The notes under the pieces were generated by a model. The model made no database searches. It was given only the letters and a program-made list of their open reading frames with translations, and had not been told where the DNA came from. Shown here piece after piece: positions 1,074 to 23,880 of a stretch of DNA of 27,632 nt. How positions within the stretch are numbered: position 1 is the stretch's first letter; every line of letters begins with the position of its first letter. This stretch comes from Chloroflexota bacterium (GTDB lineage Bacteria > Chloroflexota > Limnocylindria > Limnocylindrales > CSP1-4). The stretch covers positions 1-27,632 of the forward strand of contig JAKAMV010000030.1 in assembly GCA_021812735.1 (NCBI GenBank), read 5' to 3'. The position numbers and the translations under genes were made by a program.

Positions 1074-3353
1074 TCAGGGCGCGGGCAGCCAGTCGCCGAC
1101 CTGGGACCACGACGCGCCGCGGTCAGGGCTGCGCATGAGCCGGCTCTCCGTGGTCGTGAGGGTCGCGTTCAGCCAGCCGGACTGGACCACGTACCACGGC
1201 CCGTTGGACAGGATGGCTGCCCCGCTGGTGGTGAAGGCGTCGAACTGGCCCGGCGGACACGCGGTCCAGGTCCGGCCGCCGTCGGCGGTGCGGAGCGTCG
1301 ATCCGCGCTGGCCGGTGATGAAGCCGCTGCCGTCGGCGGCCATGGCGATCGTCGCGAGGTAGTCGGATGACGTGATGGTCCCGACGTCCTTCAGGCCGCC
1401 CGGCATGTCGATCCGCGCCCGCCACGACCAGGTGCGGCCGGCGTCGGTCGTCTCCATCACGGCCTTCAGGCCCGAGCCGGCCCCGATCACACTCGAGCAC
1501 CCGACCCAGCCGCGACTCGCCGAGACGAAGCTGACCGAGACCGGGTCGAACGCAGCGCACGGGCGGGCGTCCGGGAGCGGCGTCCACGTGGCGCCGCCGT
1601 CACTCGTCGCGTAGATCGCGGTGCCGAGGCCGGGGCCGGTCCCACCGCCCGCCGAGGGCGCCTCGGGACCGACGCCGAACCCGTGGACCGCGTCACCGAA
1701 CGAGATCGACGTGAGGTTGGCATGCCCAACGACCGTCCACGTCGCCCCGCCATCGTCGCTGCGCTCGACCGAGCCCGCGCACGCGGCATTGCCGGGTGCG
1801 GCGTCTGGCGGGCAGGTCAGCACGTCGGTCCACGCACTCGGGCCGCTGACCGCGAGCGCCACGGCCGCGCCGCCGCCGAGCGGCGACACGGACCAGCTGC
1901 CGCCCCCGTCCCCGGTGTGCCAGGCGTAGGCGGTCGTGGCGTCGCCGCCGACCGCGATTCCGTGCGCCGGGTCGGTGAACGCCACTGCGTCCGGCGTCGC
2001 GGGCTGGGGTGGCTCGGACGGCGTGGGTGTCGGGCTGGCGCCCGGTGCCGGCAGCCGGCCGAACTGCGTGTAGGGCTTCCACGTGCTGCCGTTGTAGAAC
2101 CCGAGGTTGAACGTCGCGGCCGTGTTCGACGACGTCGCGTCGACTGTCAGGGCGAAGAGGCCGCCATCGGTGGTGATGGCCGCGCCCGGCCACTGCATGC
2201 TCCCGGCTGCGTCGCCCAGGGGCAGCCGCGTCCAGGTGGTGCCGCCGTCGGTGGTGCGGATCAGGCCCTCGTTCCACAGCCAGGCGATGCCCGTGCCGTC
2301 CCGGAGCATCTCGATGCCACGGAATAGGCCGGCGAGCGGCACGTCTCCCAGCGCGGCGGTGCCGTCCATCTCGACGCGGGACCGCACCTGCCACGTCGAA
2401 CCGCCGTCGGAGGTGGCGACCACCTCTTTCGAGCTGTTCCCCACCGCCGATTCGCCGCTGCCGCAAGCGGCCCAGCCGTGCTGAGCGTCGGTGAAGCTCA
2501 CGGCCAGCGGGAAGAACGCGGGCTCACAGGGTGCCACGGGTGTCTCGACCCAGGTCCGTCCTCCGTCCGTCGTCGTGACCAGATGGAGCGATGCAGGCGA
2601 CGATGGGGCGATCGCCCAGCCCTCCGTCGCTGAGACGAACGTCAGCGAGATCACCGCGGTTGTGTCGATGACCCGCCAGGTGGCGCCCGATTCGTCGCTG
2701 GCCAGCACGGCCGGCGTGCACGGGCCATCGATGCCCGCGCACGAGGCGCTCGCCCAGGCCCGCGTGCCGACCATCGCGGCGGCGTCGAGCGGCGGGGCGT
2801 CGACCGGGACGGCCGTCCAGTCCTGCCCCTCGTTGGAGGTTGCCCAGACGGCCCCCTTGCCGCCGTCCTCGCCCACGACGATGCCCTGGTTGCGGTCCGC
2901 GAACGCCATCGCATGCTGGGCGCTGCCTGCACCGGCCGACCCCGGCGATGCGCTCCCGGAGGGGCGCACGGACGGCTCCGGCGAGCCGGGCGTGGTCGAG
3001 GGGGTCGACGCCGTGCCCGACGGTCCCGCGACCGATGTCGTCGGCGACGCCTGGGCGGGCTGGCTCGAGAGGCGGTTGACCGCCAGCCCCGCCATCGCCA
3101 GCAGGATGACCGCGGCCGCCAGCGCGACGGACGGCCCGACCTGCACGCGGCTGCGCTGGGCGACCATGCGGACCGGCGCCACGGGAACCCGGCCGACGGG
3201 CGCGTCATCATGCCGCTCGCCGCCGCCCGAGAGGCGCGACCGGACGCTTGCGGCCAGGCGGACGGGCACGGGGTCTGGGTCGAGCTGCCGGTAGTGTCGC
3301 CGGAGCAGCGCCTCGAGCCCGGGTTCGTCGAGGCCATCGCGATGGTCGGTCAT
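1074..3353 (-). CDS. Membrane-anchored protein with two tandem Asp-box (YCF48/BNR-like) modules; probable anti-sigma-associated
   Basis: A 759-residue protein with one membrane helix (about residues 76-93), a cytoplasmic N-terminus of about 75 residues, a Ser/Pro/Thr/Gly-rich linker (about 100-146), and a large extracytoplasmic part. That part holds eleven Asp-box-like motifs of the S/T-x-D-x-G-x-T/S-W kind, for example SDGGSTW, TDGGTTW and SDDGGATW. It splits into two related modules (about 147-438 and 455-759) joined by a Pro/Thr linker; cysteines recur at matching places. The start is the ATG at 3353, which overlaps the stop of the upstream sigma-factor gene as ATGA. The frame runs further upstream to 3749, but that part is only the shadow of the sigma gene. 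The pairing with an ECF sigma factor and the topology suggest a membrane-bound regulator or sensor of that sigma factor. No classical zinc anti-sigma motif is seen, so this role is inferred. Confidence 0.85.
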   Translation of the reverse strand: MTDHRDGLDEPGLEALLRRHYRQLDPDPVPVRLAASVRSRLSGGGERHDDAPVGRVPVAPVRMVAQRSRVQVGPSVALAAAVILLAMAGLAVNRLSSQPAQASPTTSVAGPSGTASTPSTTPGSPEPSVRPSGSASPGSAGAGSAQHAMAFADRNQGIVVGEDGGKGAVWATSNEGQDWTAVPVDAPPLDAAAMVGTRAWASASCAGIDGPCTPAVLASDESGATWRVIDTTAVISLTFVSATEGWAIAPSSPASLHLVTTTDGGRTWVETPVAPCEPAFFPLAVSFTDAQHGWAACGSGESAVGNSSKEVVATSDGGSTWQVRSRVEMDGTAALGDVPLAGLFRGIEMLRDGTGIAWLWNEGLIRTTDGGTTWTRLPLGDAAGSMQWPGAAITTDGGLFALTVDATSSNTAATFNLGFYNGSTWKPYTQFGRLPAPGASPTPTPSEPPQPATPDAVAFTDPAHGIAVGGDATTAYAWHTGDGGGSWSVSPLGGGAAVALAVSGPSAWTDVLTCPPDAAPGNAACAGSVERSDDGGATWTVVGHANLTSISFGDAVHGFGVGPEAPSAGGGTGPGLGTAIYATSDGGATWTPLPDARPCAAFDPVSVSFVSASRGWVGCSSVIGAGSGLKAVMETTDAGRTWSWRARIDMPGGLKDVGTITSSDYLATIAMAADGSGFITGQRGSTLRTADGGRTWTACPPGQFDAFTTSGAAILSNGPWYVVQSGWLNATLTTTESRLMRSPDRGASWSQVGDWLPAP

Positions 3354-3934
3354 CGTCGCGCCTCCTGTGAGCCGGGCGCCACGCCGCGCTCGGCCTCGAT
3401 CGCGACACGCGCTGCCGCGAGGGCGTCGCGGAGCCGCGTCTTGGCGGTGCCCTCGGGGATCCCGAGGCGGTCCGCGATCACGGGCACCGTCAGGTCGGCG
3501 CCGAAGCGGAGCGCGAGGACCACCTGGAAGTCGGGCTTCAGCCGGCGGATCGCCCGGCCGACCTCGTCTCTCTCGTCGGCCGTGGCATCGCGGATCGTGG
3601 GGTCGGCAACGTCGTCCGCAAGAGCCGCGCTCGCCGTTCGCGGTCTGCTGGTCCGACGACGGAGCTCGTCGCGGCAGGCGTTGACGACGATCCGGCCGAA
3701 CCACGCCGGGGCGGCGGCGGTGTCGCGCAAGCCCAACCTCCCGGCCCATGCGCGGGCGGCCGCATCCTGGACGGCATCCTCGGCGGCAGCGGGGTCACCA
3801 AGAATCCAGGTCGCCACCCGGTGCGCCTGGTCGAGCCCCCCGATGATCAGCTCCACGAACGTCGCCTCGTCGATCGCCGTCGGCTCCTTCGGCCTCTCGC
3901 CCCACAGCGCCGCCCCCCTGGCGTCGCTGTCCAC
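3350..3934 (-). CDS. ECF-type RNA polymerase sigma factor
   Basis: A 194-residue sigma-70 family extracytoplasmic-function factor. Region 2 spans about residues 21-96 (DQAHRVATWILGDPAAAEDA then AWFGRIVVNACRDELRRR), the promoter-melting and -10 recognition region. Region 4 spans about 122-175, with the helix-turn-helix TVPVIADRLGIPEGTAKTRL for -35 recognition. The first available start is GTG at 3934; the nearby ATG at 3936 is in another frame. No clear SD precedes it, so a slightly different start is possible. Its stop overlaps the start of the membrane propeller gene by four bases, implying translational coupling and joint regulation, as is usual for ECF factors with a membrane partner. The target promoters cannot be told from the window. 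Confidence 0.9.
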   Translation of the reverse strand: MDSDARGAALWGERPKEPTAIDEATFVELIIGGLDQAHRVATWILGDPAAAEDAVQDAAARAWAGRLGLRDTAAAPAWFGRIVVNACRDELRRRTSRPRTASAALADDVADPTIRDATADERDEVGRAIRRLKPDFQVVLALRFGADLTVPVIADRLGIPEGTAKTRLRDALAAARVAIEAERGVAPGSQEARR

Positions 3935-4058: not shown

Positions 4059-4847
4059 ATGCAGCTGCCGCTCGTGCTCCGCGTCGACCGGGACGTCGCG
4101 CCCGGAGTGGTCGTGTTCACGCTCAACCGCCCGGCGGCGCGCAACGCGATCGACGATGCGCTGCTCGACGCCCTGCTGGCGGCGATCCGCTCCCTGGAGG
4201 ACGAACCTGCCGCCCGCGTCCTGGTGCTGACCGGTGCGGGCGCGGCCGCGTTCTCGGCGGGCATGGACCTGCGCGAGCGGGCGGGCTTCTCGGATGCGCA
4301 GCTGGCCGGTCAGCACGGGCGAATCGTGGCGCTCATGACGGAACTCACGGAGCTGCAGATGCCCACGATCGCCGCGGTCGAGGGGTTCTGCCTCGGCGGC
4401 GGGTTCGAGCTGGCGCTGGCCTGCGACCTGATCGTGGCGGCGCGCGACTCGGTCTTCGGCCTGCCGGAGACCCGGGTGGGGATCTTCCCCGGCGGCGGCG
4501 CAGCCCGGCTGCTGATGTGGAGCGTGGGGTCGGCCCGGGCGCGCGATCTGATCCTCACCGGCCGCCGCCTGTCCGGCGGGGAGGCCGAGGCGTGGGGATT
4601 GGTGGCCCGGCTGGCCGAGCCCGGCGGGGCACTCGAGGCGGCGCTCGCGCTGGCTCGCGACCTCGTCGAGGCGGCCCCGCTCGGGCTGCGTGAGGGCAAG
4701 CGGGCGATCCGCACCGCTGCGGGCTCGCTCCGCGACGGACAGGCCGCCGAGGACGCCATGTACGACGTGGTCGTCCGCTCCGAGGACCGCTGCGAGGGCT
4801 TTCGCGCATTCGTCGAGAAGCGCGCGCCGCGGTGGCGTGGCCGCTGA
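4059..4847 (+). CDS. Enoyl-CoA hydratase/isomerase family protein (crotonase fold)
   Basis: A 262-residue crotonase-family enzyme acting on acyl-CoA thioesters, most likely adding water to an enoyl-CoA in fatty-acid or aromatic-acid breakdown. The N-terminal TLNRPAARNAI, the oxyanion-hole segment AFSAGMDL (about 65-71), and EGFCLGGGFELALACD (about 108-123) are typical. Both catalytic glutamates of the hydratases are in place: Glu117 in GGFEL and Glu137 in LPETRVG. That supports hydratase rather than a diverged isomerase or thioesterase, though substrate choice cannot be read. Length is normal for the family. It stands alone on the plus strand, divergent from the sigma-factor gene and 84 bp before the ArsR-type regulator, whose own promoter lies in that gap. 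Confidence 0.92.
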   Translation: MQLPLVLRVDRDVAPGVVVFTLNRPAARNAIDDALLDALLAAIRSLEDEPAARVLVLTGAGAAAFSAGMDLRERAGFSDAQLAGQHGRIVALMTELTELQMPTIAAVEGFCLGGGFELALACDLIVAARDSVFGLPETRVGIFPGGGAARLLMWSVGSARARDLILTGRRLSGGEAEAWGLVARLAEPGGALEAALALARDLVEAAPLGLREGKRAIRTAAGSLRDGQAAEDAMYDVVVRSEDRCEGFRAFVEKRAPRWRGR

Positions 4848-5758: not shown

Positions 5759-7231
5759 TCAGATACCCCCGAAGCCCTCCGGCAGGCCCGGCAGCGCGTC
5801 GCCCAGCCCGAACGTCGCGCCGGCCTCGCGCACCCGGGCGGCCATCGCGCCCGCGACGGCGGCGTCGAGCTCGGGCAGCGGGTGCGTCGCGAGGATCTCC
5901 TCGACGCGACCGCGCGCCCGACCGAATGCGTCCTCGCCGCCTGCGTCGAGCCACGCCCGGCGTGACCGGCGGTCGAGGATCGGCGACGGGAGGAACTGCT
6001 CGGACTTGAACAGCCGCCGCGTCTCCGACAGCTCGAGGAACCGGCCTTCGGGCCCCGCCGCCTCGAACGACGCCGTGGCCAGCGTCTCGGTGGGCGTGCC
6101 GATGCCGCGGAGCAGCCGCTGGGCCATGCCGATGGCGTCGGCGTCGATGACCAGCTTCTCCGCGCTCTGCGCCAGCAGGAAATCCAGCATCCCCGGTCCC
6201 GAGATGAGGTCCACGCCCGCGAGCGCGCCCACGAGCGCGGTCATGCCGGTCTCCAGGCCTGCCTGCGCGTCCACGATCTTCGAGTCCGTGGCGCCCATGT
6301 AGGCGTGGGTCGGGAGGCCCAGCCGATGGCCCACCGCGGCGTACCCGCCGTCGATCATCGCGGTCTCGATGGCGCCCATCGGCGTGGCACCCGTCCGCAT
6401 GTCCACGATCGCCGGGGCGCCGCCCCACACGATCGGCGCGCCCGGGGCAGCCAATTGGTGGAGCACGATGCCCGCCAGACACTCTGCCGCGTGCTGGACG
6501 ATGGCGCCGATGAGGGTCACCGGCGCGGCCACGCCGGCCAGCGGCATCGAGACCATCTCGGCGGGGACGCCAGCCCGACCGAGGTCCATGATGTTCCGGC
6601 AGGCGAACTCGGACCAGGTGAGCGGCGGCGAGGGGCACACGTCGAACACCGCGCGCGGCCTGTCGGCGAGGGCCTGGCGGCCGCCCGCGTCGAGCGCCAG
6701 GAGATCGACCATGACGCCCGAGCCGCGCGGCGTGAACGCCCCGGTGACGACCGGCTTGTCCGAGCTGGCCAGACACACGAGCAGCCGGTACAGGTCGCCG
6801 ATCTCGGTGGGGACGTCGTGGCACACGATGGCCGTTGACACGGCGTCAAAGGCGGGGAGGGCGTCGGCCACGCGGGTGATCCGCGCCAGGTCGGCGGCCA
6901 TCGACTGGCGCGTCTCGAGGGTGTCCGGGTCCAGCACGGCCACGCCCGACGACCCCGGGTCGAAGTGGACGGCGCCGGAGCCGTAGCGGACCGCCGGCGT
7001 GCCGTCGCGCGCATAGAGGTCGAACGCGTGGGGGACCGTGTCCAGCGCCCGCTGGACCATCGCATCGGGGATGTGGACACGGTTGCCGTCGGCCGTCCCG
7101 CCGGCGCCGGTCAGGACGCGGACCGCCTCAGGCTCCTCGACCTTCACGCCGGGGACGGCCAGCAGTGCCAGCGCCTCGTCGACGACGCGGTCGATGAGGG
7201 CGGGCTCGAGAAGCTCGAAGCGGGGTCGCAT
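5759..7231 (-). CDS. MttB-family methyltransferase 1 (non-pyrrolysine trimethylamine methyltransferase superfamily)
   Basis: A 490-residue member of the MttB superfamily (COG5598), corrinoid-dependent methyltransferases that take a methyl group from trimethylamine or quaternary amines such as glycine betaine, proline betaine or carnitine. Family features are the N-terminal RPRFELLEP, the FDPGSSGVAVLDPDTLETR segment, and the central TIM-barrel stretch with IVWGGAPAIVDMRTGATPMG. Length equals the family norm. The reading frame has no internal amber codon, so it belongs to the non-pyrrolysine branch whose substrates are mostly quaternary amines. It lies downstream of the second MttB homologue and the corrinoid protein, 97 bp after the former, with a hairpin in the gap. 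An SD (GGAG) precedes its ATG. It is clearly a diverged paralogue of its neighbour, so the two may have different substrates. Confidence 0.9.
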   Translation of the reverse strand: MRPRFELLEPALIDRVVDEALALLAVPGVKVEEPEAVRVLTGAGGTADGNRVHIPDAMVQRALDTVPHAFDLYARDGTPAVRYGSGAVHFDPGSSGVAVLDPDTLETRQSMAADLARITRVADALPAFDAVSTAIVCHDVPTEIGDLYRLLVCLASSDKPVVTGAFTPRGSGVMVDLLALDAGGRQALADRPRAVFDVCPSPPLTWSEFACRNIMDLGRAGVPAEMVSMPLAGVAAPVTLIGAIVQHAAECLAGIVLHQLAAPGAPIVWGGAPAIVDMRTGATPMGAIETAMIDGGYAAVGHRLGLPTHAYMGATDSKIVDAQAGLETGMTALVGALAGVDLISGPGMLDFLLAQSAEKLVIDADAIGMAQRLLRGIGTPTETLATASFEAAGPEGRFLELSETRRLFKSEQFLPSPILDRRSRRAWLDAGGEDAFGRARGRVEEILATHPLPELDAAVAGAMAARVREAGATFGLGDALPGLPEGFGGI

Positions 7232-7296
7232 TGGCGGTCTCCGGAGTGGCAGGGGAGGTGGCGCCCGGCCGGACAGGCGATCGGGCGGCGGATCAG

Positions 7297-7318
7297 GCCG
7301 CGACGGGTCCGTCGCGGC
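7297..7318 (-). other. Intercistronic hairpin between the two MttB-family genes
   Basis: GCCGCGACGG and CCGTCGCGGC form a 10-bp perfect inverted repeat around two bases, 10 bp after the upstream methyltransferase stop on the minus strand. No T-tract follows. It may be an attenuating terminator or an mRNA-stabilising structure that sets the ratio of the two methyltransferases. Confidence 0.55.
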
Positions 7319-7328
7319 GGGAGCAGCG

Positions 7329-8792
7329 TCAGCGGGCGAGCGCCGCCTTGTGGTGGCGCTCGATGAGGCTCGCCAGCTCGCGGTCGACGGCGGGGTCGAG
7401 CGGCTCGGGCTGATGGTTCTTGATCAGGGATCGCGCCCGCTCGAGCGCCTCGCGGTGGTACTTGTCCGGGTCGTCGTGCCACTGGCCGTACGTGCGCCGG
7501 TCCATGTAGCTGGCCTTCCAGAGGCCCTTCATCGCCTGGCGCGTGTGGGGCAGCGTGAGGTACTCGCCGCCGGGGCCGACCTCGGCGATCGCCCCGAGCG
7601 ACAGTGCTTCGTCGTCGAACGGGATGCCCCGCAGCATCGCCTCCACGATGGACGCGATCTCCGCGTCGAGGATCATCTGCTCGAACGACCAGATCCGCGA
7701 TCCGTGGAGCAGGCCAACGCCGAGCAGCATGTCGGACCCGGCGACGGACGCCATGAACGCCGACAGCCCGTTCTCGAGGCCGGCCTGCCAGCCAGACCGC
7801 TTGTCGCCGGTCGCGAACGCGCCCATCGAGAGCGGCACGTTGTAGAAGTCGGCCAGCTCGTTGGTCGCCGCCCCGAACAGGAAGTCCTCGGGACCGCCGC
7901 CCGTGTAGGCCCCCGACCGCAGGTCCATGGCCGTCTGGGCCGCGGCGTAGTAGACGGGCGAGCCGGGGTAGGCGAGCTGCATGAGCGCCATCGCCGAGAC
8001 CACCTCGGCGTTGCCCACGACCAGCGAGCCGGCGATGGTCGCCGGCCCGGAGAACGCGCACGACGCCATCGTCATGAAGCCCACCGGGACCCCCGCCTCG
8101 GCGGCGACGAGGGACGCCTCGATCGGGCCGCCGTCGTGGGCGAGCGGGCTGATCGTGCACTGCATGAGCGACAGCACCGGCCGCCGGCGGAGCGCGTCGC
8201 GCCCGCCAGCGACGATCGCGGCCATCTCGATCGCGGTGCGCGCATCCTCGGCGGTGACGACGGTCTCGGTCTGGACGTGCTTGGTGGAGTTGCGCCAGAC
8301 CGCCAGCAGCTCCTCGTGGGTGCGCGTCGCCGGGTCGGCGTCCTGCGCGGACACGGCCACCCAGTGGAAGTCCACCTGGTCGAGCGCGTCCGCGACGCGG
8401 GCGATGTCGGCGACGTCGGCGAGCGTCGAGCGGCGGACCTCGAGCGTCCACGGGTCGAGGACCTCGATGCCGCAGCCGTCGGTCGCGACGTGCACGTGGT
8501 GGCCGTCGAGCGCGAGGTCCTGGGCCGGGTTGCGCGCTGCCAGCGTGTAGGCGGGCGGGGCCGTCCGCAGGGCGGCCTCGATGATGTGCGCGGGGACCTT
8601 GACGATGCTGGTCGCCCGATCGACGGTGGCGCCGTGGGCCGCCCAGATGTCGAGCGCCCGTTCTGACGGGAACCGCACGCCGACCTTCTCGATCACCTCG
8701 AGGGTCGCCTCGTGGACGCGTCGAATCGCGGCGGGCGAGAGCACCTCGAGGCGAGGGCGCACGCCAGCAGCCGCTGCCGAAGCCGTGTTCAT
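7329..8792 (-). CDS. MttB-family methyltransferase 2 (non-pyrrolysine)
   Basis: A 487-residue MttB-superfamily methyltransferase. RPRLEVLSPAAIRRVHEATL at residues 12-31 is a typical family entry; the TDGCGIEVLDPWTLEVRRST region and the segment around AMDLRSGAYTGGGPE, at the place of the barrel motif in its paralogue, follow. It is expected to transfer a methyl group from an N-methylated substrate to the Co(I) corrinoid protein encoded just upstream. The start at 8792 is set by a strong SD (GGAGG, five bases before ATG) and by where homology begins; the frame's open extension to 8999 runs back into the corrinoid gene and is not used. No in-frame amber codon is present, so it is not a pyrrolysine enzyme. 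As the MttB gene closest to the corrinoid gene, it is probably the main partner. Confidence 0.92.
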   Translation of the reverse strand: MNTASAAAAGVRPRLEVLSPAAIRRVHEATLEVIEKVGVRFPSERALDIWAAHGATVDRATSIVKVPAHIIEAALRTAPPAYTLAARNPAQDLALDGHHVHVATDGCGIEVLDPWTLEVRRSTLADVADIARVADALDQVDFHWVAVSAQDADPATRTHEELLAVWRNSTKHVQTETVVTAEDARTAIEMAAIVAGGRDALRRRPVLSLMQCTISPLAHDGGPIEASLVAAEAGVPVGFMTMASCAFSGPATIAGSLVVGNAEVVSAMALMQLAYPGSPVYYAAAQTAMDLRSGAYTGGGPEDFLFGAATNELADFYNVPLSMGAFATGDKRSGWQAGLENGLSAFMASVAGSDMLLGVGLLHGSRIWSFEQMILDAEIASIVEAMLRGIPFDDEALSLGAIAEVGPGGEYLTLPHTRQAMKGLWKASYMDRRTYGQWHDDPDKYHREALERARSLIKNHQPEPLDPAVDRELASLIERHHKAALAR

Positions 8793-8803
8793 GTGTGCCT
8801 CCG

Positions 8804-8826
8804 GCCGGGTCGGCTGGCGACCCGGC
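8804..8826 (-). other. Hairpin directly upstream of the SD of methyltransferase 2
   Basis: GCCGGGTCG and CGACCCGGC form a 9-bp perfect stem with a 5-base loop. On the minus strand it ends next to the GGAGG of the downstream gene. A second palindrome, GGGGCGCGCCCC, lies at 8846-8857 in the same 83-bp gap. The pair may act in RNA processing or limit read-through between the corrinoid and methyltransferase genes. Confidence 0.5.
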
Positions 8827-8875
8827 AGCCGTGTGCGAGGGGGCGGGGGCGCGCCCCGGAACGTGGAGTCTGGGC

Positions 8876-9523
8876 TCAGGCGCCGACGAGCTGGCGCACG
8901 AGCGCCACCGCTCCGATGGCGTCCTCGCTGTACCCGTCGGCGCCGATCTCGGCCGCCCACGTGGACGAGGCAGGCGCACCGCCCACGATCACGCGGCACT
9001 TCGGGCGCAGCCCGGCGGCGTCGAACTGCTCGACGACGGTGCGCTGCCCGGCCATCGTGGTCGTCAGCAGGGCGGACACGCCCACGATGTCGGCGTCGTG
9101 CGTCTGGGCGGCCTCGAGGAACCGCTCCGGCGCGACGTCGACGCCCAGGTCGTGGACCTCGAAGCCGCTCGTGGCGAGCATCATGCCCACGAGGTTCTTG
9201 CCGATCTCGTGGATGTCGCCCTTGACGGTGCCGAGCACCACCCGGCCCAGCACGTGGCGCTCGGTGGCCTGGCGCTTCATCTCCGGCTCGAGGATGGCGA
9301 CGGCCTTCTGCATCGCGCGCGCCGCGAGCATCATGTCGGGCAGGAAGAGCTCGCCCGCGCCGAACTGCTCGCCCACGTAGCTGAGGCCCGGCACGAAGCC
9401 GCGGTCGATCGCATCCAGGGGCGGGACCCCGTTCGCAAGCGCCTGCTCGGCCAGCGCAGCCGCCGCGGCCGTGTCACCGTCGATGACGGACTGGCGCATC
9501 TGGGCGAACAGTTCCTCGCTCAT
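8876..9523 (-). CDS. Corrinoid (cobalamin-binding) methyl-carrier protein, MttC/MtbC-like
   Basis: A 215-residue corrinoid protein that carries the methyl group as methyl-Co(III) between the methyltransferases. Residues about 1-85 form the helical cap domain (MSEELFAQMR to ILEPEMK). Residues about 92-215 form the Rossmann-like B12 domain. The DxHxxG motif is exact in GDIHEIGKN (Asp103, His105, Gly108), with His105 as the expected lower cobalt ligand; the SALLTTT segment (150-156) and GGAP (181-184) complete the B12 tail pocket. Length matches the MtmC/MtbC/MttC family. An SD (GGAGGAG) stands nine bases before the ATG. It is the first gene of the minus-strand operon followed by two MttB homologues, and is divergent from the gene for its probable reductive activator. 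Confidence 0.95.
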   Translation of the reverse strand: MSEELFAQMRQSVIDGDTAAAAALAEQALANGVPPLDAIDRGFVPGLSYVGEQFGAGELFLPDMMLAARAMQKAVAILEPEMKRQATERHVLGRVVLGTVKGDIHEIGKNLVGMMLATSGFEVHDLGVDVAPERFLEAAQTHDADIVGVSALLTTTMAGQRTVVEQFDAAGLRPKCRVIVGGAPASSTWAAEIGADGYSEDAIGAVALVRQLVGA

Positions 9524-9937
9524 GTTCGTTGTCTCCTCCGGTGCCCCGAGGGCCCAATGCCGTCGGGGTTGGTGTCGCCTGGGCTAAGAGTCAGCGTCGC
9601 GGTGCCGCCCGGGGGACGCGATCGGCGCGCGCCTGGACCATGCTGACCCGACGGGGTTGGACCCGGTCACACGGTGGCGGCTCACCCTGCCAGTCGACGA
9701 GGGATGGATACCACCGCTCGCGGAACCCGCGGGCGGCCTGATCCGCGGCAAGGAACGACGACGGGCGGCGCGATGCGGACGGCTTGAGGGTGCGCTGAAC
9801 CACATACCCCTCGCGAGATGGGGCGGAGACTGCGGCGAGCGTCCGGCCGGGACGGCCTCGGGGGATAGGGCAGAAGGTCCCGTCGCCGCAGGCCGCTCGG
9901 CTGGCGGGGTTGAAGGGGCCCCAACTAGACTCTCGCC
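9524..9937. other. 414-bp divergent intergenic region of the C1 module
   Basis: This gap separates the minus-strand corrinoid operon from the plus-strand activator operon and should hold both promoters. It contains a 6-bp stem (CCCCGA 9544-9549, TCGGGG 9563-9568) immediately upstream of the corrinoid gene's SD, and a TAGACT box six bases before the activator ATG. I see no protein-coding signature, convincing tRNA, or B12-riboswitch core (GCCACTG B12 box with its flanking pattern) on either strand. A regulator binding site probably exists but cannot be singled out. Confidence 0.5.
9926..9931 (+). promoter_or_regulatory. Candidate -10 box of a leaderless start for the activator gene
   Basis: TAGACT stands exactly six bases before the ATG at 9938 and no SD is present. 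This fits a transcript that begins at the start codon. No matching -35 box is seen at 16-18 bp. Confidence 0.45.
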
Positions 9938-11557
9938 ATGCCCGACTTCATCCACGGGTCCGAGCGCCGACCGCTCGTGCCCGGCCAGTCGCTGTTCGAC
10001 GTCGCCGGCGAGCTCTCGGTGGTCGTGCCGGCCTCGTGCAGGAAGACGGGCCGCTGCCACGAGTGCGTGGTGGAGATCAAGTCGGGCGCCGACCAGCTGA
10101 CGCCGCGCACCGACGAGGAGTCGTTCCTCGGCGCGTCGTTCCGGCTGGCCTGCCAGGCCCGCGTGGCTGCCGCCGACCACGACGTCGAGTTCAGCGTCCT
10201 GCGCCGGCGCCTGCGGATCCTGCTCGCGCCGGAGGAGCTGCGGCCGGACCCCGACATCGACCCCGCCATCCGCGAGGTCGACGGCCGCGTGGTCCTCGAC
10301 GACGGCACGGACCTCGGCGCCGTCGGCGGCGCGCCCGTGGGCGTGGCGGTCGACATCGGGACCACCACGATCGTCCTCGAGCTCGTGGACCTGCGCACGG
10401 GCGCCGTGCTCGCCATCGCGTCTATCGAGAACCCGCAGCGCTTCGGCGGCAGCGACGTGATGACCCGCATCACCTATGAGGCCGAGGTGCCGGGCGAGCT
10501 GCGCCTGGCCCTCCGCCGGGCGCTCAACCACGAGCTCAAGCGGCTGTGCGCCGAGTTGGGCCTGGACCGCAGGCAGCTCGTCGAGATGGTGGTCGTCGGC
10601 AATCCGACGATGCGCGACCTCGCGTTCAACCTCGACGTGCTTCCCATCGGCCGGCTGCCATTCCGCTCTGTCACCGAGACGGCGTGGCGGAACGGCGACG
10701 CGCCCAGCACCATGATCGCCCGGCGCGCCCACGAGCTGGGGCTGCTGATGCACCCGCAGGGGCGCGTGGTCGCGGGTCCGCTCATCGCCTGCCACGTGGG
10801 CGCCGATGCGGCGGCCGACCTGGTCGCGGTGGACGCGGTCGAGAAGGGCGGCTCGTTCCTGCTCGTGGACATCGGCACCAACACCGAGATCGTCGCGTCC
10901 GACGGGCACCGCATCCTCGCCGCCTCGAGCCCGGCCGGCCCCGCGTTCGAGGGCGGTGGCGTCCGCTACGGGATGCCGGGCGCCGACGGCGCCATCGAGA
11001 AGGTCCGGCTCGCGGGCAACCGGTTCCAGGTCGAGGTCATCGGGGACGCGCCGCCGGAGGGGATCTGCGGCTCAGGCCTGGTGGACCTGCTGGCGTCCCT
11101 CCGGCGCGCGGACTGGATGACCAGGCGCGGCTCGTTCACCGACGGCCTGCCCGAGATCCGGATCGTGGACGATCCGAGGATCACCTTCTCGCGGGCCGAC
11201 GTCGGCCACCTCTCGATCGCCAAGGCGGCCACCTCGGTCGGCCAGCGGGTGCTGCTGCGCCGCCTCGGCCTGCGGCCGGAGGACCTCGACCGCGTCTACC
11301 TCGCCGGCGGCTTCGCGAACGCGCTCGACATCAGCACTGCCGTCGAGATCGGGCTCTTGGTGGACGCGCCGCGGGAGCGCATGATCCGGGCGGGGAACGC
11401 ATCGATCGCCGGCGCCCGCGCCCTGCTCCTGTCCCGGGGCCGGCGGGCCGCGCTCGACGATCTGGTGCGCCGCATCGAGCACGTGGAGCTCGAGTCCGAG
11501 CCCGACTTCTTCGACCTGTTCACCGACGGCTGCCTGTTCGAACCCATCACCGCCTGA
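9938..11557 (+). CDS. 2Fe-2S/ASKHA corrinoid-activation protein (RACo-like, DUF4445 type)
   Basis: A 539-residue ATP-dependent reductive activator that returns inactive Co(II) corrinoid to Co(I). The N-terminal domain (about 1-85) is a plant-type 2Fe-2S ferredoxin with Cys34, Cys40, Cys43 and Cys72 (SCRKTGRCHEC, then LACQ). From about residue 135 the ASKHA ATPase fold begins with GVAVDIGTTTIVLEL; a second phosphate-loop-like motif, LLVDIGTNTEIV, and the C-terminal YLAGGFANALDIST follow. This is the architecture of RACo and related activators; the methanogen RamA type differs by having C-terminal 4Fe-4S clusters. Length is slightly shorter than RACo. It is divergent from the corrinoid operon and first in an operon with the folate enzymes, 10 bp from metF. 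Its job is to reactivate the neighbouring corrinoid protein. Confidence 0.92.
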   Translation: MPDFIHGSERRPLVPGQSLFDVAGELSVVVPASCRKTGRCHECVVEIKSGADQLTPRTDEESFLGASFRLACQARVAAADHDVEFSVLRRRLRILLAPEELRPDPDIDPAIREVDGRVVLDDGTDLGAVGGAPVGVAVDIGTTTIVLELVDLRTGAVLAIASIENPQRFGGSDVMTRITYEAEVPGELRLALRRALNHELKRLCAELGLDRRQLVEMVVVGNPTMRDLAFNLDVLPIGRLPFRSVTETAWRNGDAPSTMIARRAHELGLLMHPQGRVVAGPLIACHVGADAAADLVAVDAVEKGGSFLLVDIGTNTEIVASDGHRILAASSPAGPAFEGGGVRYGMPGADGAIEKVRLAGNRFQVEVIGDAPPEGICGSGLVDLLASLRRADWMTRRGSFTDGLPEIRIVDDPRITFSRADVGHLSIAKAATSVGQRVLLRRLGLRPEDLDRVYLAGGFANALDISTAVEIGLLVDAPRERMIRAGNASIAGARALLLSRGRRAALDDLVRRIEHVELESEPDFFDLFTDGCLFEPITA

Positions 11558-11567
11558 GGTTGTAGCG

Positions 11568-13304
11568 ATGAGCCCCACCCGCAAGCCTGCCGACACGGCC
11601 ACCGTCGCTGCCGCCCTGCCCACCGGGCCTGGCGCGCTTCGGAAGGCGCTGTTCGACCCCGCCGCCTTCGCGACCGTGGTGGAGCTGGTGCCGTGGGCAG
11701 GCGAGCTGGTGGACGCGAAGGGGGCCTCGCAGCTGAAGGCCGCTCAGGAGCTGGCGGGGAATCCGCGGATCACCGCGATGTCGATCACCGACAACGCGGG
11801 CGGCCACGCACGGCTGTCGCCGTCCGCCCTGGGGGGGCAGGTCCAGCAGCTGGGCCACGACGCCATCGTCCACGTCGCCTGCCGCGACCGGTCCCGCAAC
11901 GCGCTCCAGAGCCTGGGCTGGGAGCTGCTGAGCCGCGGGCTCACGTCGGTGCTGGCCCTGACGGGCGACTACCCCGAGAGCGGCTACGAGGGACTCTCGC
12001 GCCCGGTCTTCGACATCGATTCGGTGGCGCTGCTCCAGATGTACCGCGGGCTGGGCCAGGAGGCTGCGGACAGAGCCGTCACCGCGGACGCCGGAGCCGA
12101 CGTCGACGCCCACCGCTTCCTGCTCGGCTGCGCCATCGACCCGTACAAGCGCGTCGAGCGGGACCTCGTGCCGCAGTACCTCAAGCTGGCGCTCAAGGTC
12201 CGCAGCGGCGCCGACTACGCCATTGCGCAGGTGGGCTACGACGCCCGCAAGCTGGCCGAGCTGCTGGCCGTCGTCAAGCGCGACGGGCTGGGCATCCCCG
12301 TCGTCGCCAACGCGTACATCCTGTCCGGGCCGGTGGCGCGGGCGTTCAACGCGGGCAGGGTCCCGGGCTGCATCGTCACCGACGACCTGCTGGCCGTCGT
12401 GGAGCGCGAGGCCAAGGCGGCCGACAAGGGCCGGGCGTTCTTGCTCGAGTTCGCGGCCAAGCAGGCGATCGTGGCGCGCGGCCTGGGCTTCAAGGGCGTC
12501 TACTTCGCAGGCCACCGCAACGCCGGCGAGATCGCGAGGATCTGCGAGCTGATCGACTCGCATCCGGCTGACGACTGGAGGGCGCTCCTGCCGGACGTCT
12601 CGTGGGCGCTGCCCGCCGCGTTCCAGCTGTTCGAGCGCGACGCCGACGGCCTCCCCACTGGACAGCCCGCGAAGGCGTACGCGCGCACACTGACGCCGGC
12701 CGCCCGCAGGGCCGCTCGGGCAAAGGTGGACCCGCTCTACCGGTTCAGCCGGATCGTGCACCAGCGTGCGTTCGAGCCGGGCTCGCCCGGGTTCGGCCTG
12801 TGGGGCAAGGTGTACGCGAAGGTGGAGCAGTACCGGCTCGACAAGCCGGTCCACGCGCTCGAGCAGGCGGTCAAGGTGCCGATGTTCGACTGCCGGGACT
12901 GCGGCGACTGCTCGCTGCCCGACATCGCCTACCTGTGCCCCGAGAGCCACTGCCAGAAGAACCAGCGCAACGGGCCCTGCGGCGGCGCCCACGACGGCCT
13001 GTGCGAGGTGCCCGGCCACACCTGCGTCTGGGCGGATGCCTACAAGCGCCTCAAGCCGTACGGCGAGGAGCTCACGATGCTCGACCGGGCGCCCGTCCTC
13101 CAGGACAACGCGCTCCGTCGGACGTCCGCGTGGGGCAACGCGTTCCTCGACCGCGACCACATCGCCCGGCGCCTCGGCCGGGCTCAGCTGCCGGTGGTCC
13201 AGGCCCCGGCGCCCAAGCCGAGGCCAGCTGTCGGCGCGCCGGCTGATGCCGCCCAGCCGGCGCCGGGCCCGTCTGAGCCGCTCCAGGCTGACGTCCCGAA
13301 GTGA
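11568..13304 (+). CDS. metF: Methylenetetrahydrofolate reductase fused to a MetV-like zinc/Cys domain (MetF-MetV)
   Basis: A 578-residue fusion. Residues about 35-330 are a MetF-type flavin TIM barrel (VVELVPWAGELVDAKGA, TAMSITDN, CRDRSRNALQSLGWELLSRG, LALTGDYP). Residues about 385-500 carry the MetV-like C-terminal domain: CRDCGDC, LCPESHCQKNQRNGPCGG, LCEVPGHTCVW, with eight cysteines at 442, 445, 448, 457, 462, 471, 479 and 486. In acetogens MetF and MetV are separate subunits; here they form one chain. The enzyme interconverts methyl-THF and methylene-THF, and here it should oxidise methyl groups delivered by the corrinoid system. The tail (about 545-578) is Pro/Ala-rich and probably disordered. 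An SD (GAGGT) precedes the ATG; the stop overlaps the next start as GTGA, so the two are translationally coupled. The electron acceptor is unknown. Confidence 0.92.
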   Translation: MSPTRKPADTATVAAALPTGPGALRKALFDPAAFATVVELVPWAGELVDAKGASQLKAAQELAGNPRITAMSITDNAGGHARLSPSALGGQVQQLGHDAIVHVACRDRSRNALQSLGWELLSRGLTSVLALTGDYPESGYEGLSRPVFDIDSVALLQMYRGLGQEAADRAVTADAGADVDAHRFLLGCAIDPYKRVERDLVPQYLKLALKVRSGADYAIAQVGYDARKLAELLAVVKRDGLGIPVVANAYILSGPVARAFNAGRVPGCIVTDDLLAVVEREAKAADKGRAFLLEFAAKQAIVARGLGFKGVYFAGHRNAGEIARICELIDSHPADDWRALLPDVSWALPAAFQLFERDADGLPTGQPAKAYARTLTPAARRAARAKVDPLYRFSRIVHQRAFEPGSPGFGLWGKVYAKVEQYRLDKPVHALEQAVKVPMFDCRDCGDCSLPDIAYLCPESHCQKNQRNGPCGGAHDGLCEVPGHTCVWADAYKRLKPYGEELTMLDRAPVLQDNALRRTSAWGNAFLDRDHIARRLGRAQLPVVQAPAPKPRPAVGAPADAAQPAPGPSEPLQADVPK

Positions 13305-14341
13305 GGACGGACCGGCGCGGGCACCCGTTCCTGGTCATCGGCGAGAACATCCACGCAAGCCGGGTCCTGCCGCGGACGGGGCGCCGTGCCGTGGAGCTTC
13401 CCGGCGGGCGCGTCGGGATCGGCTTCGAGGATGGCGGTGAGCGGGTCGTGCTGCCCGTCCACCCGGCGATCGCCGCGGGCCGGGACTTCGCGGCCGGCAA
13501 GGTCAGGCACGTGGCCAGCGCCATCCGCTGGGGTCTCGACGGGGGTGAGCACGCGCAGGCGGCGGCGGCCTACATCGGTGCCCTTGCGGCGCTCCAGGAG
13601 ACCGCAGGGGCCGACTGGCTGGACCTCAACGCCGACGAGGCGGCGGCCGACCCGGACACCCGCGCCCAGGCGATCGCCTGGCTGGTGACCACCGTCGAGG
13701 CGGCGGCCGGGGTGCCGGTGTCGGTCGCCTCCTCCGACGCGGCGGTGATCGTGGCGGGCGCTGCGGCGTCGGGCCAGCCGCGCGGTCGCCTCCTGCTCAA
13801 CTCCGCGTCGCTGGAGCGCCCCGAGGTGCTCGACATCGCGCAGACCTTCGGCGCCTCGGTTGTGCTCGCGTGCAGCAGCCCCGGCGGGATGCCCGCGACG
13901 GCCGAGGACCGCGTCCGCAACGGGATTGAGATCCTCGAGCTGGCGCTGGCCAGGCAGATCCCCGCCGACGCGTGCCTCGTCGATCCGCTGGTGCTGCCGG
14001 TGGCCGTGAAGCCGGACGCCCCCGCCAGCGTCCTCGAGGCGGCGCGCCAGCTGCGCGCGGAGTACGGCGTCGAGATCCACCTCACGGGCGGCCTGTCGAA
14101 CGTGTCGTCCGGGATGCCGGCGCGCCGTGTGCTCAATGAGGCGTTCATCGACCTCGCGGCGGAGGCCGGGATCGACTGCGGGATCGTGGACCCGGTGGCG
14201 TCGGACCTCGGGCGAGCGTTCGGCGCGTCGCGCGACACCGACGCCTACCGCCTGGCCTCGGACCTGCTCCTGGGCCGCGACCCCAACGGCGGCGCGTACA
14301 AGGCCGCCTTCCGGGCGGGGCGCCTGGAGGGGGCGGCGTAG
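13301..14341 (+). CDS. Pterin-binding methyltransferase (MeTr/MtgA-like methyl-corrinoid:tetrahydrofolate methyltransferase)
   Basis: A 346-residue protein of the dihydropteroate-synthase-like pterin-binding fold. FLVIGENIHASR (10-21), ADWLDLNADEA, GRLLLNSASLERPE and DACLVDPLVLPV are barrel segments typical of methyltetrahydrofolate:corrinoid methyltransferases. It lacks a B12 domain and a homocysteine domain, so it works with the separate corrinoid protein. In glycine-betaine and related systems such a protein (MtgA, MtqA) transfers the methyl from the corrinoid to tetrahydrofolate, which fits the downstream MetF step. The N-terminus has an insert of about 40 residues between the first strand and the first helix (roughly 20-65) that is longer than in small MeTr proteins. 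GTG at 13301 overlaps the stop of the MetF-MetV gene. It is not folate synthesis, as no other folate genes are near. Confidence 0.85.
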   Translation: MRTDRRGHPFLVIGENIHASRVLPRTGRRAVELPGGRVGIGFEDGGERVVLPVHPAIAAGRDFAAGKVRHVASAIRWGLDGGEHAQAAAAYIGALAALQETAGADWLDLNADEAAADPDTRAQAIAWLVTTVEAAAGVPVSVASSDAAVIVAGAAASGQPRGRLLLNSASLERPEVLDIAQTFGASVVLACSSPGGMPATAEDRVRNGIEILELALARQIPADACLVDPLVLPVAVKPDAPASVLEAARQLRAEYGVEIHLTGGLSNVSSGMPARRVLNEAFIDLAAEAGIDCGIVDPVASDLGRAFGASRDTDAYRLASDLLLGRDPNGGAYKAAFRAGRLEGAA

Positions 14342-14377: not shown

Positions 14378-15121
14378 TCAGACGGCCGGCACCGCCTTGA
14401 CGACCCTCTCGTCCCAGCTCATGGCCAGCCGCTCGCCGGGCTGCAGCGCGAGCACGTCGTCGTCCCAGTCCCCGTCGATCAGCTTGCGCAGCAGGACCAG
14501 CGAGCCCTCCACCTGCTCGAACGCCCAGCCGCGGCGGTCGGCCTGCTCGCGCGCGTAGGCCACCGACGCCGCCTCGTCGGCGACGCCCATCCCGACGAAC
14601 GCGGCCCGCTGGTAGTGCGCCTTCCAGGCCCCCATGACCTCCATGAGGTAGTCGGCGTTGTCCTCGCCGTACTTCTCGACGTACTCGGCGTGGATCGCCT
14701 CCATGTCGTCGTCGCCGTCGCCGGACACGCCGAGGCCGACCGACTTGGCGTTGTACCCCTGGTTGCGCTCCACCTGATCGTTCACGTACCAGTAGGTGGT
14801 GGAGGCGCTGAACTCCGTGGCGTACCGCTCGCGCGCCCCGAGGAACAGCGTGATGCAGTCGTGGGCGCGCGGCAGCACCACCGGCGTGGACCGCGCCACG
14901 ATCCCGGCCGTGGCGCCGCCGCACAGGCCGTAGCCCAGCACGATCGCATCGTAGCCGGGCTTCACCGCGTCGATCTCGCGCTGCAGGATGTCACGCAGCC
15001 TGGCGGGCTCGTTGTGGAGGCCGCGCTCGAACAGGCGCAGGTCCACGACATGCGGCGACCGCGAGGCGCACAGGTATGCCGGACGGGCGACGACGTCGCA
15101 GGCGATGAGGAACAGTTTCAC
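14378..15121 (-). CDS. DUF1638-type protein of the corrinoid methyltransferase neighbourhood
   Basis: A 247-residue protein resembling the DUF1638 family, whose biochemical role is not established and whose genes recur beside MttB-type methyltransferase genes. Conserved-looking cysteine motifs are KLFLIACDV (Cys8), GYGLCGG, and PRAHDCITLFLGAR. The Cys/His pattern may bind a metal or cofactor. The start is set at GTG 15121, giving the typical KLFLIAC entry right after it; the frame opens at a TTG at 15154, which is less likely. A GAGG lies about eight bases before the GTG. It is convergent with the pterin-binding methyltransferase and so transcribed apart from it, and divergent by 77 bp from the membrane-anchored protein gene. 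Family assignment is from motif memory and moderately sure; function is unknown. Confidence 0.75.
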   Translation of the reverse strand: MKLFLIACDVVARPAYLCASRSPHVVDLRLFERGLHNEPARLRDILQREIDAVKPGYDAIVLGYGLCGGATAGIVARSTPVVLPRAHDCITLFLGARERYATEFSASTTYWYVNDQVERNQGYNAKSVGLGVSGDGDDDMEAIHAEYVEKYGEDNADYLMEVMGAWKAHYQRAAFVGMGVADEAASVAYAREQADRRGWAFEQVEGSLVLLRKLIDGDWDDDVLALQPGERLAMSWDERVVKAVPAV

Positions 15122-16350: not shown

Positions 16351-16450
16351 CGGGCACGTCAGCTGCCAGATCAACGCGGCGGAGCCGCTGACCTTCTTCG
16401 GGGCGATGCTCCAGGCGCTCGAGGACGGGTGCCGGCTCCGCACGGCCTCG
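16349..16450 (+). pseudogene. Possible remnant of the 3' end of a lost gene
   Basis: Right after the upstream stop, frame 2 reads DGHVSCQINAAEPLTFFGAM and on through LQALEDGCRLRTAS. All codons from GAC 16349 to the TCG ending at 16450 end in G or C, as in real genes here, and the text looks protein-like. The frame has a stop at 16295 and no usable start before it, so it is not an intact gene. I cannot name the parent family. Chance composition in GC-rich DNA remains possible. Confidence 0.27.
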
Positions 16451-16761
16451 CGCCCAGCAGCGTGCAGTGCGCCGGCGTCCGTGGTTCAATCGCTCAGTCA
16501 TTCCGCGCTCCCGCGTCACCGCGGGTCGAGAGCGGAGTGATCCGGGCGGCGGCCCCCAACGCCGCCCCGGCGGTCGGTCGCCCACTCTCCCCAGGCGACC
16601 GACCGCCACCTGTCCAGCCAGGTCGCGTGGACGGCTGCTGGAGGGTCAGTCCAGCGCGTGGCTCGGAGGGCCGCGGGCGTGCCCGTCGCGGCGCCGGACG
16701 GAGACGGTTTCGGGCCGTTCGGCACATCTGGCGACGACGCCCCGAGCGGGACCCTACCGGC
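16351..16761 (+). other. 411-bp gap upstream of hypF
   Basis: The gap holds the coding-like remnant at its left end and a long perfect hairpin at 16569-16607. Between the hairpin and the hypF ATG I see no SD and only a weak -10-like GACCCT (16750-16755) six bases before the ATG. The frame upstream of hypF is open but lacks protein-like character. No RNA gene is recognised. Confidence 0.45.
16569..16607. terminator. 14-bp perfect hairpin in the hypF upstream region
   Basis: GGCGGTCGGTCGCC (16569-16582) pairs perfectly with GGCGACCGACCGCC (16594-16607) across an 11-base loop, the longest perfect looped stem I found in the window. No T-tract follows on either strand. It may end transcription from the upstream gene or act as a regulatory dyad for hypF. 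Confidence 0.55.
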
Positions 16762-19158: not shown

Positions 19159-19162
19159 CACG

Positions 19163-19513
19163 ATGTGCCTGGGGATCCCGGGTCGGATCACCGAGATCCG
19201 CGACGAGGCCGGGCTGGCCATGGGAAAGGTGGACTTCGGCGGCGTTCGCAAGGACGCCTGCCTCGCCTACCTGCCGGATGCCCGGCTGGGCGACTACGTG
19301 ATCGTCCATGTCGGCTTCGCCATCAGCAAGGTGGACGAGGCCGAGGCGATCAAGACCCTCCAGATCCTCGACGAGATGGGCGTCATGGAGCCCGAGCTCA
19401 TGACCCTGGGCCCCGGCATGGACCAGCCCGCGGTCATCAGCGACGAGGACCCGTCGATCCTGGTGTTCGACCCCGCGCAGCCGCGCTCCTCGATGCCCGG
19501 TCCAGCGTCATGA
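19163..19513 (+). CDS. hypC: HypC/HupF hydrogenase maturation chaperone with long C-terminus
   Basis: A 116-residue HypC, the small chaperone that with HypD carries the Fe(CN)2CO unit to the hydrogenase large subunit. The essential N-terminal motif MCLGIPG with Cys2 is present, which fixes the start at 19163, with an SD (GGAG/GGAGG region) at the end of hyp[21 protein letters not shown] and [19 protein letters not shown] are typical of the OB-like barrel. The usual family length is about 75-95 residues; the tail after about residue 80 ([20 protein letters not shown] and beyond) is an extension of unknown role. The stop overlaps the hypD start as ATGA, so hypC and hypD are coupled, in line with their 1:1 complex. 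Confidence 0.95.
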
Positions 19514-23110: not shown

Positions 23111-23841
23111 GCGGCGCGACGGCCGGCGCCTCTCCCGCGCTCGAGATCCTGCCCGCTGAGACCTGGGCAGCGGTCGTCGCCGAGCGGCTCGTCGGCCGCC
23201 TCGAGGCCAACCCCGGGCTTCGCGTCTGCCTGCCGACCGGCCACACGCCGGCACCGCTGTACGACCGCCTGGGCGAGCTCGACCGGGCCGAGCCCGGGCG
23301 CTGGGCGCGGGCCACGGTCGTCCTCCTCGACGAGTTCACGGGGTTGCCCCAGGGCGACCCGTCGCGATTCGACCGCTGGGTCCGGAGCGCCCTGATCGAC
23401 CGCCTGGCGCCCCCGCCCCGCTTCATCCCGATCGATGTCGACGGAGGCGACATGAACGCGGCCGTGGCACGCCACGACGCCGCGGCGATGGGCCTCGACA
23501 TCGCGGTGGTCGGCCTCGGCCTCAACGGGCACATCGGGCTGAACGAGCCCGGTTCGAGCCCGGCCGACGAGACTCGGGTGGTCCGCCTCGCGGCGTCGAG
23601 CCAGGAGGCCGCCACGACCCGCTACGGCGCGACCCGGACGCCGACCGCCGGGATCACGATCGGCCTGGCCCGGCTCCTCGAAGCGGGCGAGATCTGGCTG
23701 CTCGTCACCGGCGAGCGCAAGGCAGGGGTCCTGCGCCGTGCGCTCCGTGAGCCGGAGGGCTCGGACTGTCCGGCGTCGTACCTGCGTCGCCACCCGCGCT
23801 TGGTCGTGTTCGCTGACGAGGCGGCGGCGACCCTGCTCTGA
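23107..23841 (+). CDS. NagB-like glucosamine-6-phosphate deaminase/isomerase family protein
   Basis: A 244-residue member of the NagB/6-phosphogluconolactonase-like fold. [15 protein letters not shown] (41-55) is the phosphate loop and [10 protein letters not shown] (71-80) carries the Asp75-Glu76 pair. [15 protein letters not shown] (136-150) is the hallmark NagB active-site motif with His142; the Asn at 140 replaces the Asp of E. coli NagB, as in many Gram-positive enzymes. The likely reaction is deamination and isomerisation of an amino-sugar phosphate to a keto-sugar phosphate. Several sugar clusters with Gfo/Idh/MocA enzymes carry such paralogues with other substrates, so the precise activity is open. 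It is coupled to the upstream oxidoreductase by ATGA and convergent with the ROK gene across 39 bp. Confidence 0.87.
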
Positions 23842-23853
23842 CGGGTGCTCGGA

Positions 23854-23867: not shown

Positions 23868-23880
23868 GTCCTGCACCGTG

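Follow-up and report, generated by a model that had tools for sequence, protein, structure and literature searches.

Two diverged non-pyrrolysine MttB homologues beside a single corrinoid carrier in a putative methyl-harvesting locus of a Chloroflexota bacterium

The subject of this study is a compact, divergent gene cluster at positions 5759..14341 of a 27,632-nucleotide stretch of a Chloroflexota genome (GCA_021812735.1, contig JAKAMV010000030.1; the whole stretch is referred to as the window). It encodes two homologues of the methyltransferase MttB (MttB1 and MttB2), one corrinoid protein (the carrier), a reductive activator, a MetF-MetV fusion, and a pterin-binding methyltransferase. We read the cluster as a corrinoid methyl-harvesting module, in which the two MttBs would each act on a quaternary N-methyl substrate of their own, share the one carrier, and feed methyl groups to folate; the probability of this reading was put at about 0.6. 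Gene content, domains, conservation, and the loci with only one MttB were read directly from sequence, and from these we infer substrates, flux direction, and all catalysis. The module appears to be of the known three-component type, with the pairing of two MttBs and one carrier as the new variation. Newly described here are the gene order carrier-MttB2-MttB1 (the triad), recurring in 60 of 80 loci, and natural single-MttB versions of each kind. Together they provide a limited number of proteins on which two new substrates could be sought by direct test, and the triad lets one ask how a single corrinoid protein works with both enzymes, different as they are.

In a floodplain survey, according to the available part of the source, mttB was annotated more often than any other gene of the corrinoid methyltransferase systems (17% of genomes); Acidobacteriota and Chloroflexota were the phyla in which such genes were most frequent, and mttB-type annotations occurred in Anaerolineae and Limnocylindria (PMC11264602). 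The available portions of the literature examined named a substrate for no Chloroflexota enzyme. No description of the triad was found among the matches listed in a search of open-licence literature on mttB and corrinoid methyltransferases of Chloroflexota, Limnocylindria, and Anaerolineae.

Conservation of the carrier-MttB2-MttB1 order

The three genes lie on the minus strand and are transcribed in the order carrier, MttB2, MttB1. The carrier (8876..9523, 215 amino acids) is an MtgC/MtbC/MttC-like B12 protein with PF02607 and PF02310 domains and the motifs DIHEIG (residue 103) and SAL (residue 150). Its nearest solved relatives were the predicted cobalamin-binding protein 1y80 and the Methanosarcina barkeri protein MttC (7xcn chain M, 184 bits). 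MttB2 (7329..8792, 487 amino acids) and MttB1 (5759..7231, 490 amino acids) matched PF06253 with 283 and 292 bits, respectively, at a cut-off of 25; MttB2 was taken to start with the ATG at 8792, the open reading frame as listed having begun further out.

GTDB species genomes were scanned with a 16-sequence MttB1 alignment, and the best 80 loci of 231 relatives were kept. Genes were counted at 50% identity for MttB1 and the carrier and at 55% for MttB2, and the triad was scored where its genes were co-directional and in steps of <1 kb. The preliminary description of the cluster would have been refuted had homologues always come with a separate corrinoid gene of their own; this gene-order survey showed otherwise, with the single-carrier triad in 60/80 loci. 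Carrier and MttB1 without MttB2 were found in 10 loci, and the other 10 were differently arranged or cut: L018, L040, and L042 held MttB1 with neither carrier nor MttB2 in the 10 kb upstream, and the rest started near a contig end. By record title, 78 of the 80 loci were from Chloroflexota, the other two (L022 and L058, both lacking MttB2) being from Acidobacteria.

Pairing was also assessed in a sample of 301 genomes, consisting of G011 and 300 genomes drawn evenly from its phylum. At thresholds of ≥54% (MttB1) and ≥59% (MttB2) identity, with matches of 40-47% uncounted and at most five candidates scored per genome, MttB1 was present in 19 genomes and MttB2 in 20. Both occurred in 17, MttB1 alone in two, and MttB2 alone in three (Fisher p = 8e-23, shared ancestry uncorrected). 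The two genes were adjacent and co-directional with MttB2 first in every one of the 17 paired genomes. The triad is thus patchy in the phylum (~6% of the sample) yet tightly kept where present. In G011, the MttB pair and one carrier were the only ones found in the genome.

All five genomes with a solo MttB had the carrier gene directly upstream. Among 87 loci examined, 12 held MttB1 only and three MttB2 only, five of these 15 having been fetched for being solo. Two Acidobacteria (G012 and G017) had a single PF06253 match each, an MttB1 beside a carrier. In a carrier tree, 75 triad and solo carriers formed one clade (support 0.73), with the 15 solo ones at several places within it; repeated loss of either MttB partner would be the simplest reading. 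Of the two options considered earlier for the pair, two substrates feeding one carrier is favoured here and the obligate mixed complex is not, because each MttB also occurs singly beside a carrier of the same type, so that the two enzymes would be separable. These solo loci would speak against obligatory mixing, not against mixing where both proteins are present.

Clades and pockets of the two MttB enzymes

Neither MttB frame contains an internal stop, and both have alanine (Ala314 in MttB1, Ala327 in MttB2) at the position of pyrrolysine 334 in M. barkeri MttB. Both proteins scored under the cut-off of 525 of the pyrrolysine-MttB profile TIGR02369 (361 and 441 bits). They are 31% identical to each other; the nearest solved relative was MtgB (2qne/9yce) for MttB2 and the pyrrolysine MttB (7xcl) for MttB1. 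MttBs without pyrrolysine act on quaternary amines, in which the leaving group is good enough without this residue, and the pair is therefore unlikely to demethylate one compound in successive steps. Proteins of both types carry the database label trimethylamine--corrinoid protein Co-methyltransferase. Because pyrrolysine is lacking, the label is not supported for either clade, and it may overstate the use of trimethylamine.

In a tree of 217 MttB proteins, including three reference MttBs (all from PDB entries), MttB1 and MttB2 fell into separate clades of 92 (support 0.83, rising to 1.0 on adding two 42%-identical relatives) and 66 proteins (support 0.999), each count including the window protein and two duplicates. 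A clade of Desulfitobacterium hafniense MtgB and the Sinorhizobium meliloti protein 4yyc (support 1.0) held neither of them. The MttB1 and MttB2 clades were not sisters, on which ground a recent tandem duplication was rejected, though deep nodes were weak (0.43-0.88).

Four residues were docked around glycine betaine in both MtgBs studied, with F353 in addition, as the accessible part of the source describes (PMC6855144). The D. hafniense residues Y94, N199, R309, H345, and F353 were compared, and none of the five is kept in MttB1 or MttB2. The corresponding positions are S, C, H, S, and L in 92/92 members of the MttB1 clade and G, C, S, L, and S in 66/66 members of the MttB2 clade, the first position being alignment-dependent by one residue. 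The protein 4yyc, inside the MtgB clade, keeps Y, N, R, and H and lacks the F353 equivalent (4/5). Furthermore, 89 columns are ≥95% conserved in both clades, with the same residue in 48 and a different one in 41. These differing columns, together with the distinct invariant pockets, are the pattern expected of two different substrates. Pocket residues and clade membership both speak against glycine betaine, which is probably the substrate of neither enzyme. The comparison with MtgB, part of the pathway logic in the preliminary description, does not carry over to substrate.

Glycine betaine may be served elsewhere in relatives' genomes, because MttBs of the MtgB clade are present there: in G001 (L092), G002 (L090), G005 (L089), G014 (L091), and G015 (L088), those of G005 and G015 being 67-68% identical to 4yyc. 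Three of the five nearest genomes (G001-G005) thus hold such an MttB; G003 has a 743-bit PF06253 match and G004 fragments only. Overall, one to 12 PF06253 matches per genome were counted in 17 genomes of relatives. A second corrinoid system is present at L108, L088, and L089 (G001, G015, and G005), where a 43-44%-identical carrier is directly followed by a DUF1638 gene, with a high-scoring MttB a few kb on.

The folate branch and the fate of the methyl group

The triad is separated from a plus-strand half by a divergent region of 414 bp (9524..9937), which presumably holds the promoters of both halves. No Rfam match (riboswitch or other RNA) was found in it. A conserved operator was sought by aligning the region from the window, L001, L003-L005, and L007-L009 (L002 and L010 were excluded for extra genes there), and it was given up, as little of the alignment was conserved.

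The first plus-strand gene (9938..11557, 539 amino acids) encodes a [2Fe-2S]/ASKHA reductive activator of RACo/AcsV type with Fer2, Raco_middle, and RACo_C_ter domains and the cysteine motif Cys34-x5-Cys-x2-Cys...Cys. It matched solved RACo-type proteins (4c1n/3zyy) with 216 bits and fell below the RamA profile TIGR04270 (114 bits, cut-off 500), so its type is Fer2 plus RACo. It is followed by a methylene-tetrahydrofolate (THF) reductase fused to a Cys-rich C-terminal domain (MetF-MetV, 11568..13304, 578 amino acids, PF02219 and PF12225), which has eight cysteines within residues 442-486 and methylene-THF reductase as its nearest solved relative. The pterin-binding methyl-corrinoid:THF methyltransferase of MtgA/MtgD/AcsE type (13301..14341, 346 amino acids, PF00809) starts with GTG and overlaps MetF-MetV by 4 bp; it scored 161 bits against PRK07535 (under its cut-off of 259), 96 bits against 4o0q, and 80 bits against the AcsE-type 2yci. 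Beyond 5759..14341, a DUF1638 gene converges from the minus strand on the end of the module (14378..15121, PF07796, 128 bits); its GTG start at 15121 agrees with homologues, and it encodes a putative accessory of corrinoid reactivation. From MttB1 to DUF1638, the intergenic distances are 97, 83, 414, 10, -4, and 36 bp.

The six genes first described were thus all recovered in place with their domains by Pfam and profile matches, and the sequence supports their description as a corrinoid N-demethylation unit that combines one carrier with two diverged MttBs of the non-pyrrolysine type and leads towards methyl- and methylene-THF. An MttB-type enzyme, a D-x-H-x-x-G corrinoid protein, and a corrinoid:THF methyltransferase, the three components of such systems, lie in one locus. 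In the proposed route, MttB1 and MttB2 would use their different active sites to demethylate one quaternary N-methyl substrate each, loading the methyl groups onto one shared Co(I) carrier. From there, the pterin-binding methyltransferase would pass the methyl group to THF, and MetF-MetV would oxidize the resulting methyl-THF, yielding methylene-THF that enters C1 oxidation or assimilation. Oxidized corrinoid would be re-reduced by the RACo-like protein, perhaps with the help of DUF1638.

An alignment of 44 DUF1638 homologues showed invariant cysteines and a His-Asp-Cys motif (C7, C17, C66, and H86-D87-C88), potential ligands for a metal or cluster. The function of DUF1638 could not be approached by structure: the model was poor (mean pLDDT 62.6) and gave no Foldseek match at E ≤ 0.001, and the search for a solved relative returned none beyond one match at E 0.61.

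In its parts, the cluster comes closest to the aerobic MtgBCD system of Ruegeria pomeroyi, Phaeobacter, and Sinorhizobium (PMC12478193, PMC5764234). As far as the available parts of these sources go, PF06253 enzymes, one carrier, a pterin methyltransferase, a MetF paralogue, a RamA-like activator, and DUF1638 are common to both. The window differs in that the genes make up a single compact locus with divergent halves, MetF carries a fused MetV-type domain, the unit contains no homocysteine methyltransferase, and the MttBs lie outside the MtgB clade and lack the proposed glycine betaine residues. Ruegeria raises two MtgBs, MtgC, MtgD, MetF2, a RamA-like protein, and DUF1638 on N-osmolytes, according to the portion of text available (PMC12478193).

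That one carrier can serve several MttBs is established in Eubacterium limosum, where the substrate-specific, non-pyrrolysine MtpB, MtcB, and MtyB share the carrier MtqC, the THF methyltransferase MtqA, and the activator RamQ (PMC8604678, available part). The E. limosum MttB genes lie in separate substrate-induced clusters, whereas those of the window are co-directional with the carrier. Similarly, the glycine betaine cluster of 'Ca. Formimonas warabiya' holds several MttBs, in this case three with two corrinoid proteins, as the accessible excerpt reports, compared with two MttBs and one carrier in the window (PMC9768040). D. hafniense MtgB (2qne, 9yce) is of the same family and follows the same three-component logic, at 27.9% identity to MttB1 and 30.6% to MttB2. 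M. barkeri MttB (7xcl, 7xcn) is 33% and 30% identical, respectively; unlike that system, the window MttBs lack pyrrolysine, and the methyl group would go to THF, not to coenzyme M.

None of the eight nearest genomes examined (G001-G008) yielded CdhC (CODH/ACS), a difference from E. limosum, and only 2/17 genomes contained it; acetogenic use of the methyl group was rejected on this basis. Formyl-THF synthetase (FTHFS) occurs in 16/17 genomes, away from the locus (directly upstream of the carrier in G011), and the heme-copper oxidase COX1 in 15/17, including six of the eight nearest. Oxidation is therefore likelier than acetogenesis, absence from incomplete genomes being weak evidence.

Beyond the triad, the gene content of the module differs from one near relative to the next. 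At the nearest locus, L001 from a Chloroflexi metagenome-assembled genome, the module genes are 91-96% identical to those of the window. A few of the closest proteins bear the name Candidatus Limnocylindrales, suggesting a host akin to Limnocylindria. Among L001-L010, the activator and MetF-MetV lie beside the triad or a carrier-MttB1 pair in eight (L001-L005, L007, L009, and L010). L006 and L008 are cut, as is L001, and the L001 module is probably complete, because another contig of G001 (C33) carries the methyltransferase at its very start together with DUF1638. In some more distant loci (e.g., L051, L054, L082, and L084), activator or methyltransferase are present only as 28-37% homologues.

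Several observations weigh against the harvesting module as proposed. The methyltransferase gene is missing at L003 and L004, DUF1638 at L002 and L005, and MttB2 at L007 and L009, so that among L001-L010 all seven genes stand together only at L010, which has an extra MttB. Elsewhere in G003 and G004, methyltransferase homologues reach only 34-45% identity, and G011 and G012 have none at E ≤ 1e-10. Stops interrupt the MttB2 frame in G097 and G313, two of the 17 genomes with the pair. No transporter was recognized among the genes of the window and its relatives scanned with Pfam. COX1 is missing in G003 and G004, small assemblies among the five nearest, and the physiology is deduced throughout from relatives' genomes of unreported completeness. 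The MtgB pocket residues come from docking. Finally, the domain PF02965 (MetH activation) was absent from all seven genomes G001-G007, in which MetE gave nothing beyond weak matches of ~20 bits in G005 and G007. The cluster had been called self-contained, which goes too far, given the absence of a recognized transporter, FTHFS encoded elsewhere, and the methyltransferase or DUF1638 missing at some near relatives' loci.

The lack of PF02965 and of a strong MetE match bears on the most serious alternative, which we consider unlikely: a dual or mainly methionine-directed unit, in which the carrier would pass methyl groups on to a homocysteine methyltransferase encoded elsewhere and MetF would run reductively. 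According to the available parts of the sources, Phaeobacter and Ruegeria use a RamA-like protein, DUF1638, a carrier, and a pterin domain to make methionine (PMC5764234, PMC12478193); DUF1638 and the RamA-like activator show cofitness with a split methionine synthase in Phaeobacter (PMC5764234), and Ruegeria cannot dispense with either MtgC or MtgD when synthesizing methionine (PMC12478193). The homocysteine methyltransferase domain PF02574 was found in 17/17 genomes, as stand-alone genes in G001-G007 (one G002 frame has 906 amino acids). A split methionine synthase is likely in these seven, because PF02965 and any strong MetE are lacking, and a corrinoid unit probably serves methionine synthesis in these bacteria. 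At L058, moreover, a PF02574 gene lies ~0.8 kb downstream of MttB1 on the opposite strand. The window unit, however, contains no PF02574 gene, and its two MttBs point to methyl harvesting. In 6/17 genomes, G008 included, PF02574 lies in frames of 1168-1240 amino acids resembling full MetH. A second unit, in which a single contig carries an MttB along with a carrier, DUF1638, and a pterin-binding homologue (G001 C9, G002 C45, G003 C64, and G005 C45), could serve methionine synthesis instead.

A bolder proposal is quite improbable: MttB1 and MttB2 would be two uncharacterized classes of quaternary-amine demethylases that assemble with the carrier as one mixed complex, with at least one peptide-derived substrate in Anaerolineae-type loci. 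Peptidase genes do follow MttB1, of family S9 in 30/80 loci (within 0.5 kb in 23) and of family M20 in 25/80 (mostly 3-4.4 kb on). Furthermore, in 34/80 loci the carrier is preceded within 107 bp by a gene for a GntR regulator, and 6/80 have a family-5 solute-binding protein gene nearby; contig ends lower all these counts. Taken by themselves, apart from the bolder proposal, these neighbours suggest that the substrate in such loci is an amine that is acylated or linked to a peptide; none of the four neighbour types was seen in L001-L010, the loci nearest the window.

An MttB1-MttB2 hetero-oligomer, with the carrier docking across the MttB2:MttB1 interface and one subunit possibly non-catalytic, is very unlikely. 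A mixed dimer is thinkable because each M. barkeri MttC contacts both subunits of the MttB dimer, as stated in the part of the source available (PMC9842639), and the fixed order and tight pairing in 17/17 genomes would fit it; the solo loci with the same carrier type and the non-sister clades argue for separate enzymes. Redundant paralogues for one substrate (gene dosage or kinetic tuning) are the least probable alternative, favoured by the duplication of MttB1 itself in 10/62 triad loci and opposed by the 31% identity, the separate clades, and the different invariant pocket residues.

Further MttBs and neighbouring genes

A third MttB subfamily, in most cases 25-29% identical to MttB1, lies downstream of the triad in many Anaerolineae-type loci (L037 13442-14863, L062 13447-14856, and others), and frequently has genes for an M20 peptidase and a pterin methyltransferase after it. 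The extra MttB of L010 (6174-7742, 34% identical to MttB1) lies between activator and carrier; L016, L029, and L039 have MttBs akin to it ahead of the carrier, and these cluster with it in the tree.

In the window, the module is preceded by a beta-eliminating lyase gene (20-1030), truncated where the window begins, and an enoyl-CoA hydratase gene (4059-4847), the latter named from its translation. By tblastn, the lyase was found within 7 kb of MttB1 in L001, L002, L005, L007, and L008, and the hydratase in the same loci except L005. Naming a substrate from these neighbours was attempted and abandoned, as they lie near MttB1 in some relatives with no clear link. A BNR/YCF48-repeat protein gene lies beside a putative ECF-type sigma factor gene on the minus strand (1074-3934).

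On the other side, a hydrogenase maturation set, read as HypF, HypC, HypD, and HypE from translations, adjoins the module (16429-21740). No hydrogenase structural gene was recognized in the window, and HypF is near the module also in L003 and L007. The window ends with a sugar-type cluster (21911-27619), in which two Gfo/Idh oxidoreductases, a ROK-type regulator, and a TIM-barrel protein were named from translation only; its further member is a glucosamine-6-phosphate isomerase family protein.

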